Source: Gemmatimonadetes bacterium SCN 70-22
GTDB taxonomy: Bacteria > Gemmatimonadota > Gemmatimonadetes > Gemmatimonadales > Gemmatimonadaceae
DNA length: 64,000 nucleotides
Direction: 5' to 3'
Assembly (NCBI GenBank): GCA_001724275.1
Contig: MEDZ01000002.1
Coordinates: forward strand, 62,001 to 126,000
Of the stretch, positions 60,873 to 63,395 are shown one piece after another (positions within the stretch are counted from its first letter, which is position 1; every line of letters starts with the position of its first letter). The position numbers and the translations under genes were made by a program. The notes under the pieces were generated by a model, which saw only the letters and a list, made by a program, of their open reading frames with translations, was not told the origin of the DNA and did not search any database.

Positions 60873-61220
60873 TCACTTGAACAGCTTGTCGTACGTCGCC
60901 TCGTCGAACCCCACGATCAGCGTGCGCCCCTTGCGCAACGCGGGGGCGCGCAGCGTCCCGTACGGGCCGAGGATGGCGGCGTGCACCTCCTCCTGCGACG
61001 GCTTGTCCTTCGCCAGGCGCAGGTGGATGAACTTCTTTCCCTTCATCGAGTAGATCTCGTCCACTCCCTTCAGCACCTCGCGCACCGCCTCGGCGTCGTA
61101 GCGCTTCTTCCTGGCGTCTTCCACCTGGCCGAGCGCGACGTGCTTCCGTCCCAGGAACTCCTGGGTCTTGGCGCAGGTGTTTCAACCGGGGCGCAGGTAG
61201 CTCCAGTCCAGCTTCGGCAT
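60873..61220 (-). CDS. ArsC/Spx-like thioredoxin-fold protein with in-frame TGA (probable selenocysteine) at residue 13
   Basis: An ATG at 61220 with GAGG 8 nt upstream opens MPKLDWSYLRPG, then TGA (61184-61182), then NTCAKTQEFLGRKHVAL and 86 further in-frame codons to a normal stop, 115 residues in all, the usual length of small ArsC-like (YffB-type) proteins. The TGA occupies the first cysteine of the C-x-x-C redox motif (U-N-T-C), exactly where selenocysteine occurs in redox selenoproteins. The fold continues through KGKKFIHLRL and APALRKGRTLIVGFDEATYDKLF. A perfect hairpin lies at the SECIS position. Without readthrough only 12 residues are made; a GTG restart at 61124 lacks the active site and a ribosome-binding site. 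A nonsense mutation or sequencing error (TGT or TGC to TGA) is the alternative. Confidence 0.75.
61150..61165 (-). promoter_or_regulatory. Candidate SECIS hairpin downstream of the in-frame TGA
   Basis: In the mRNA, CCCAGG and CCUGGG form a perfect 6-bp stem closed by an AGUU loop. The stem begins 17 nt after the UGA and the loop G is the 24th base after it, within the range known for bacterial SECIS elements, which need a G (often GU) at the first or second loop position. The hairpin lies in coding sequence, as bacterial SECIS elements do. Confidence 0.65.
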
Positions 61221-61269
61221 GTCGTCCTCGTGGTTCGGGTGGTGTCGGGGGTGCCCTCGATGCCGGGCG

Positions 61270-61905: not shown

Positions 61906-63395
61906 GCGCGATGCGCCGATAGCGACGCCCCCTGGGTGGGGACCACCGCCTCGGCCTCCATCTCGACCAGGAACTCCTCGCCGACCAGCTCTGCCCGTAC
62001 GAGGGTGTTGGCGGGGAGGATCCCGCCGAATCGCTCGCCGTGCGCACGCGCAATCGCTTCCCACTGCTCCATGCGCGACACGAAGACACGGGTACGGACC
62101 ACGTCCTCGAGCCGTGCGCCGAGCGAACGAAGCGCCCCCTCGATCTTGTCGATGACGAAGTGTGCCTGGGCGGCGGGGTCGGTTCCGCCGATGAGCCGGT
62201 CGCCGTGCGAGGCGGTCGTCCCCGAGACCACGATGCGGTCACCAAGCCGGACCGCGCGAGAGTACCCGAACTGCGTCTCCCACGAGGTGCCGCTCAGGCA
62301 GGTGAGCCGCCCGCCGTCGCCCCGCCGGGTGGCGAAGGGTGCGGGGAATTCCTCGAGGTGGTGGCTCAGGTCGCCCGACGCCGTGAGATACGGCGGCTTC
62401 CGGTACTCATCACCGCAGTCGCCGGGAATCGGCGCGAGCGTCGCCGCAGCCGCATCGATCTCCTCCCGATCTTGCCTCGAGAGCGCGAAGGAGAAGAGTC
62501 GCGCATTGTCCTCGATGTGCGCGCTGGCCCCGATCCGGGCACCGATGATCACGCCCCCCACCGCCGGCTGCTCGAGGATGTAGCGGCTGGCGACGTTCGC
62601 GACCGAGACCTCGTGGCGCCGAGCCACGCCGTCGAGCGCCGTCAGCACGCGTTGCAGCCCCTCCCACCCTCCAGCCGCGCGGATGAAGCGCCCGTACTTC
62701 ATCTGCGACCATGTGTCGAGATGCTCCCAGTCGGGCTCCGCCTTGCCTAACCAGCGTGTGCTGAGGAATCCCCCCTGCACCGTGCCGTAGGCCAGGAGCT
62801 TCACGCCGTGCGCCAGGCAGAGCGCCGTCATCGGCCCCGCCGCCCGGCGGTCGATGAGCGAGTAGCTCACCTGATTGCTGACGATCGGGATGCCGCTGGC
62901 GAGGGCGATGCGCAGGTGCGCGGCATCGAAGTTCGTGAGTCCCAGGTGGTGAATGACCCCCTCGCGCCGCAGCTCATCCAGGTAGAAGAGCGCGTCGAGC
63001 CATCGCGGGTCGGCGAAGGTCCACGCGTGGAACTGCATGAGGTCGATGGACCGCCCTCGCAGTCGCGCGAGGGCGCGGTCCACGGCGGCGCGCACGTCGT
63101 CCCGCGAGACGGGGCCCGGTTTGGGGACCCACTTGGTGAGGAGCTGCACCGCGGTGCCGGGGGCCATCTCCGCACGAAAGATCCCCGCGACGACTTCGGC
63201 CGACCCGTAGTGATCGGCCATGTCGAAGGTGGTGAATCCGGCGGCGGCATACGGCGCCATCGCCTGGGCGGTGGCCCGGAGGTCCATGGTGCGCCCGTCG
63301 CGCTCCAGGTCGGCGACCTGCCAGAGCCCGGTGAGGACCCTGGAGATCTCCAGCCCTGGGGCGAGGGTGCAGCGTTCGACGACGAAAGGCGTCAT
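61902..63395 (-). CDS. Aldo/keto reductase fused to a RidA-like domain
   Basis: The 497-aa product joins two enzymes. Residues ~1-330 are an aldo/keto reductase barrel with the catalytic tetrad positions visible (Asp and Tyr in FDMADHYGSAE, Lys in LLTKWVPKPG, His in LMQFHAWTF) and a C-terminal NADPH-binding part (IIGARIG). Residues ~350-490 are a RidA/YjgF-like domain (GYSRAVRLGDRIVVSGTTASHGD, then VVRTRVFVSRMEQWEAIARAH and LVRAELVGEEFLVEMEAEAVV) that retains an Arg and Glu in the expected places. The fusion suggests reduction of a carbonyl or imine produced or cleared by the RidA part. ATG at 63395 starts the barrel. Confidence 0.87.
   Translation of the reverse strand: MTPFVVERCTLAPGLEISRVLTGLWQVADLERDGRTMDLRATAQAMAPYAAAGFTTFDMADHYGSAEVVAGIFRAEMAPGTAVQLLTKWVPKPGPVSRDDVRAAVDRALARLRGRSIDLMQFHAWTFADPRWLDALFYLDELRREGVIHHLGLTNFDAAHLRIALASGIPIVSNQVSYSLIDRRAAGPMTALCLAHGVKLLAYGTVQGGFLSTRWLGKAEPDWEHLDTWSQMKYGRFIRAAGGWEGLQRVLTALDGVARRHEVSVANVASRYILEQPAVGGVIIGARIGASAHIEDNARLFSFALSRQDREEIDAAAATLAPIPGDCGDEYRKPPYLTASGDLSHHLEEFPAPFATRRGDGGRLTCLSGTSWETQFGYSRAVRLGDRIVVSGTTASHGDRLIGGTDPAAQAHFVIDKIEGALRSLGARLEDVVRTRVFVSRMEQWEAIARAHGERFGGILPANTLVRAELVGEEFLVEMEAEAVVPTQGASLSAHRA

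Follow-up and report, generated by a model that had tools for sequence, protein, structure and literature searches.

An in-frame UGA in a Gemmatimonadota gene of the NF041106 family is very probably read as selenocysteine in an ArsC/Spx-like protein

The window, that is, the whole stretch of 64,000 nucleotides analysed here, comes from contig MEDZ01000002.1 of Gemmatimonadetes bacterium SCN 70-22 (assembly GCA_001724275.1). On its minus strand, the frame running from 61220 to 60873 consists of an ATG and 11 further codons, a TGA as codon 13, 102 sense codons and a TGA stop, which reproduces the layout given in a preliminary description of this DNA (12 codons, TGA, 102 codons). The same description reported a strong ribosome-binding site. 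A Shine-Dalgarno sequence is indeed present 5 nt before the ATG, but its strength was slightly overstated, as GAGG is a moderate match. The features of the locus are as follows.

60873–61220, minus strand: predicted coding sequence of an ArsC/Spx-like selenoprotein, 115 residues, with Sec13 in the motif RPG-U-NTC
61226–61229, minus strand: putative Shine-Dalgarno sequence GAGG, 5 nt upstream of the ATG, a moderate match only
61182–61184, minus strand: in-frame UGA codon, putatively read as Sec13, from the direct sequence (TCA on the plus strand) and from the relatives
61173–61175, minus strand: codon (TGC) for Cys16, the presumed resolving residue of U-x-x-C, invariant in an 18-row alignment
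61150–61165, minus strand: putative SECIS core hairpin CCCAGG-AGUU-CCUGGG, from its perfect 6-bp stem, the hairpins of the relatives and covariation
60873–60875, minus strand: terminal stop TGA, which ends the ArsC/Spx-like gene

Also in the window, positions 61911–62900 of the minus strand form a single open stretch with an aldo/keto reductase match followed by an L-PSP/RidA-type domain, possibly an aldo/keto reductase–L-PSP/RidA fusion protein.

When the TGA was translated as U, the product matched the NCBIfam model NF041106, 'ArsC family (seleno)protein', with 125.8 bits (cut-off 85) over positions 1–107 of the 107 in the profile, and the family motif [U/C]xxC, with Sec or Cys first, was found as the TGA at codon 13 followed by Cys16. 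The window protein has the full-length match, the UxxC motif and the in-frame TGA in common with NF041106 (ArsC_rel_Se_1), and no difference of substance was seen. In the 18-row alignment, Sec13, Cys16, R91, P93 and G104 are invariant, and the homologues are colinear over their entire length.

Among 395 Gemmatimonadota genomes sampled, 66 contained matches above the NF041106 cut-off (67 matches), and all 67 carried exactly one stop, always TGA; its location at the aligned UxxC position was confirmed in the loci that were read out, and the remaining matches are represented by the stop count alone. Homologues were to be aligned at residue 13 according to the preliminary description, and every over-cut-off relative read out has TGA at that residue. 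The same TGA also occurs in relatives from records labelled Acidobacteria, Melainabacteria and Planctomycetes. The nearest public relative, from a Gemmatimonadetes metagenome-assembled genome, is 87% identical.

These comparisons bear on two explanations that would dispense with selenocysteine. One substitution would suffice to convert TGC or TGT to TGA, and the assembly is a draft of 84 contigs; the gene might then encode an ordinary Cys-containing ArsC/Spx-like protein, obscured by a sequencing or assembly error. However, every over-cut-off relative that was read, from several phyla, has the TGA at the aligned residue, and the SECIS hairpin covaries. For the family, such an error is refuted by the independent assemblies, and for the window gene it is regarded as highly improbable. 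It is just as improbable that the gene is a pseudogene with a genuine stop at codon 13. The TGA does break an otherwise open frame, but 102 intact codons lie downstream, relatives that are 36–88% identical to the window protein carry the TGA at the same site with no further disruption, and no relative has another stop there. Conservation of the TGA across phyla contradicts the pseudogene explanation.

The genome, which is 99.98% complete, contains all four components of the selenocysteine machinery that the preliminary description had named for checking. A tRNA-Sec with the anticodon UCA was detected by a covariance model (65.6 bits, cut-off 47) and by ARAGORN, and profile searches detected selA (528 bits, contig C15), selB (313 bits, cut-off 242, contig C23) and selD (384 bits, contig C53, 11412–12332, minus strand). 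The selD gene adjoins the tRNA-Sec gene on its contig, and selA and selB sit on other contigs. Since selD has one in-frame TGA of its own, in the motif CAGUAAK, the genome has two UGA-containing genes that need the same machinery. Formate dehydrogenase alpha gave no match over the cut-off in a profile search of the genome.

The gene and the machinery are also associated across the phylum. Of the 66 genomes with over-cut-off TGA matches, 65 have selA (hypergeometric p of about 5e-9, with relatedness ignored), and the exception, in which selA was not detected, is 89% complete (G346). In more distant relatives, the position of Sec13 is occupied by the redox Cys of CxxC, and of the 19 genomes with stop-free, more distant relatives, 16 are without selA.

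In some bacteria, alternative genetic codes are in use, and the UGA might accordingly be read as tryptophan or otherwise suppressed. However, TGA also terminates the same gene (60873–60875), the genome has a dedicated tRNA-Sec(UCA) with selA, selB and selD, and the UGA position corresponds to the redox Cys of CxxC in the more distant relatives. In view of the conservation and the machinery, an alternative code has a negligible probability.

The hairpin downstream of the UGA was found at 61150–61165 as previously described, with a perfect 6-bp stem and an AGUU loop. Its first base is nucleotide 17 after the UGA, 22 nt separate the UGA from the loop, and the second loop position is G. A bacterial SECIS model requires 16–37 nt between the UGA and the loop and a G within the first two loop positions (PMC13188914), and the window hairpin agrees with this model. 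On its own, the hairpin is weak evidence in GC-rich DNA: by a simple rule, approximately 9% of all TGAs in the window have a hairpin at least as good, single-sequence RNA folding of the SECIS region gave a weak z of −1.3 to −1.8, and the hairpin was not better than those of synonymous recodings of the same gene (p = 0.41). What raises it above chance is its conservation in the relatives, together with the NF041106 match and the presence of the Sec machinery.

Each of the 33 distinct TGA loci that were scored had an equivalent hairpin, with 22–23 nt from the UGA to the loop and an invariant GUU, and the mean z against synonymous recoding of the same genes was −2.5. Conversely, the Cys-containing relatives showed a hairpin at the equivalent place in none of 7 cases, and a strong hairpin anywhere in range in one of the 7. 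Covariation was assessed for the 28 rows in the main register against 500 shuffles. With relatedness uncorrected, 97.4% of the stem cells were paired, changes on both sides numbered 18 as compared with 4.3 in the shuffles, and the covariation score was 0.358 as compared with 0.178, a value reached in none of the 500 shuffles. Sliding the position of the stem abolished the signal. For the same 28 rows, two of the five covariation measures (pairs with double change and pair types) did not exceed the shuffles. A register shifted by one base, with a 4-nt loop, was seen in four loci: besides the window locus, these are from two congeners and one family member. Read in the register of most relatives, the window stem contains mismatches. 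The SECIS check that had been proposed for this region thus yields a conserved hairpin with compensatory changes in the relatives.

The stem also overlies coding sequence. The peptides TQEFLA, TREFLE and TQEFLG each accompany matching stem sequences, those of TQEFLA and TREFLE being different and self-consistent, and at the stem pairs in alignment columns 18/32 and 20/30 (window 61164–61150) a silent site covaries with a residue-changing site (Ala/Glu and Gln/Arg). RNA structure thus seems to drive linked residue changes in the protein, as judged from these alignments.

What the sequence shows is the UGA within the frame, the machinery, the family, the fold and a hairpin that is both conserved and covarying. 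The locus is almost certainly the gene of a genuine bacterial selenoprotein in the NF041106 family, with UGA13 as selenocysteine, and we infer that Sec is actually inserted in the cell. During translation, SelB with Sec-tRNA(UCA) would bind the hairpin just 3' of codon 13, and the SelB-bound hairpin would cause the UGA to be decoded as selenocysteine. Without selenium, translation would end after 12 residues.

Other TGA-containing proteins of the ArsC family were seen in the sampled phylum. Locus L080 (G199:C68), and likewise G290, G341 and G109, encode a different protein (IYEKPTUTTCRK), which lies under the NF041106 cut-off and has a Cys counterpart in L077. Its gene contains a TGA in frame, together with a SECIS-like hairpin, and it may represent a second group of ArsC-family selenoproteins in this phylum. 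Two loci of one genus (L078 and L079, g77) form a divergent NF041106-like subgroup under the cut-off, with TGA in FYQRPGUTSCKR and a hairpin at 18 nt, not 23, that lacks the GUU loop.

The preliminary term 'ArsC-like' holds at the level of the ArsC/Spx superfamily, within which profiles and structure comparison place the window protein nearer to Spx than to arsenate reductase. The protein matched Pfam ArsC PF03960 with 32.5 bits (cut-off 24). An AlphaFold2 model built from 18 relatives (pLDDT 91, pTM 0.82) had Spx and ArsC-related proteins as its top structural matches, at a moderate level (Z no higher than 8.9, rmsd of 2.9 across 90 residues). The product would belong to the ArsC/Spx branch as a small protein with a thioredoxin fold. 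Its Sec13 and Cys16, located where the first helix begins, would act as a selenenylsulfide/selenol-thiol redox pair. A selenol/thiol oxidoreductase role is probable: the selenol would most likely carry out the redox catalysis, on a substrate proposed to be a disulfide or of the peroxide type.

Alternatively, the protein might bind RNA polymerase as a redox-switched regulator of the Spx/MgsR type, its sensor being Sec13-Cys16. Spx proteins are the closest solved structures by sequence profile (E 5.5e-10) and by Foldseek with the AlphaFold2 model (E 1.9e-4), and the fold, the location of CxxC, which is the Spx switch position, and a colinear alignment are common to both (TIGR01617; PDB 6ghb, 1z3e and 3l78). 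In contrast, the window protein scored 32.7 bits against TIGR01617, under its curated cut-off of 75.05, has Sec for the first Cys, and, within the Spx-aligned segment, has Arg-Ala-Pro, invariant in the family, in place of the Arg-Arg-Pro of Spx. The conserved UxxC pair alone fits a plain oxidoreductase as well. An Spx-type regulator is therefore considered unlikely, and it is a little less likely still that the selenol acts as a redox switch controlling transcription in the Spx manner, which would make the product a selenoprotein transcription regulator.

It is similarly doubtful, and slightly more so, that the protein is an arsenate reductase in which Sec serves as the nucleophile towards arsenate. 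The window protein has the Pfam ArsC match and the thioredoxin-like ArsC fold in common with glutaredoxin-linked ArsC, whose structures share that fold. However, the arsenate reductase model TIGR00014 gave no match to the window protein even at E 1, and picked up only one of 18 relatives, weakly (4e-4). In addition, the motif is UxxC rather than the single-Cys active site of ArsC, Arg is replaced by Ala within the RRP segment as aligned to Spx, and no ars genes were recognised beside the locus. Across the neighbourhoods of 13 loci, virtually all gene conservation was confined to the genus or to a single other genus, and the other ORFs shared among them were frame shadows or scattered genes. 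Since the neighbouring genes are not conserved beyond the genus, no pathway is indicated for the putative oxidoreductase.

ArsC-like selenoproteins were reported as early as 2006 (PMC1794560). The preliminary description mentioned a report of such proteins from marine metagenomes, and this report exists: the Global Ocean Sampling selenoproteome of 2008 described 'Arsenate reductase 2' (cd03032, ArsC_Spx), a UxxC family with 42 Sec forms (PMC2398784). Those forms are marine metagenome reads, and are likened to the window protein by superfamily and UxxC motif, not sequence by sequence. A 2022 review lists a UxxC ArsC-like protein, carrying this report forward (PMC9312934), and a 2026 review continues the family as NF041106, 'Arsenate reductase-like protein', with UxxC, noting that almost all of these families are still largely uncharacterised in function (PMC13188914). 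No literature linking Gemmatimonadota to ArsC-like selenoproteins was found.

Overall, the family is already catalogued, and the window gene is a well-supported further example rather than a discovery. It adds a gene that a standard gene caller would truncate or miss, and, above the NF041106 cut-off, the sampled phylum shows the Sec form only. As the NF041106 family is without a characterised physiological role, the window gene would be reasonably worth studying by biochemical means.
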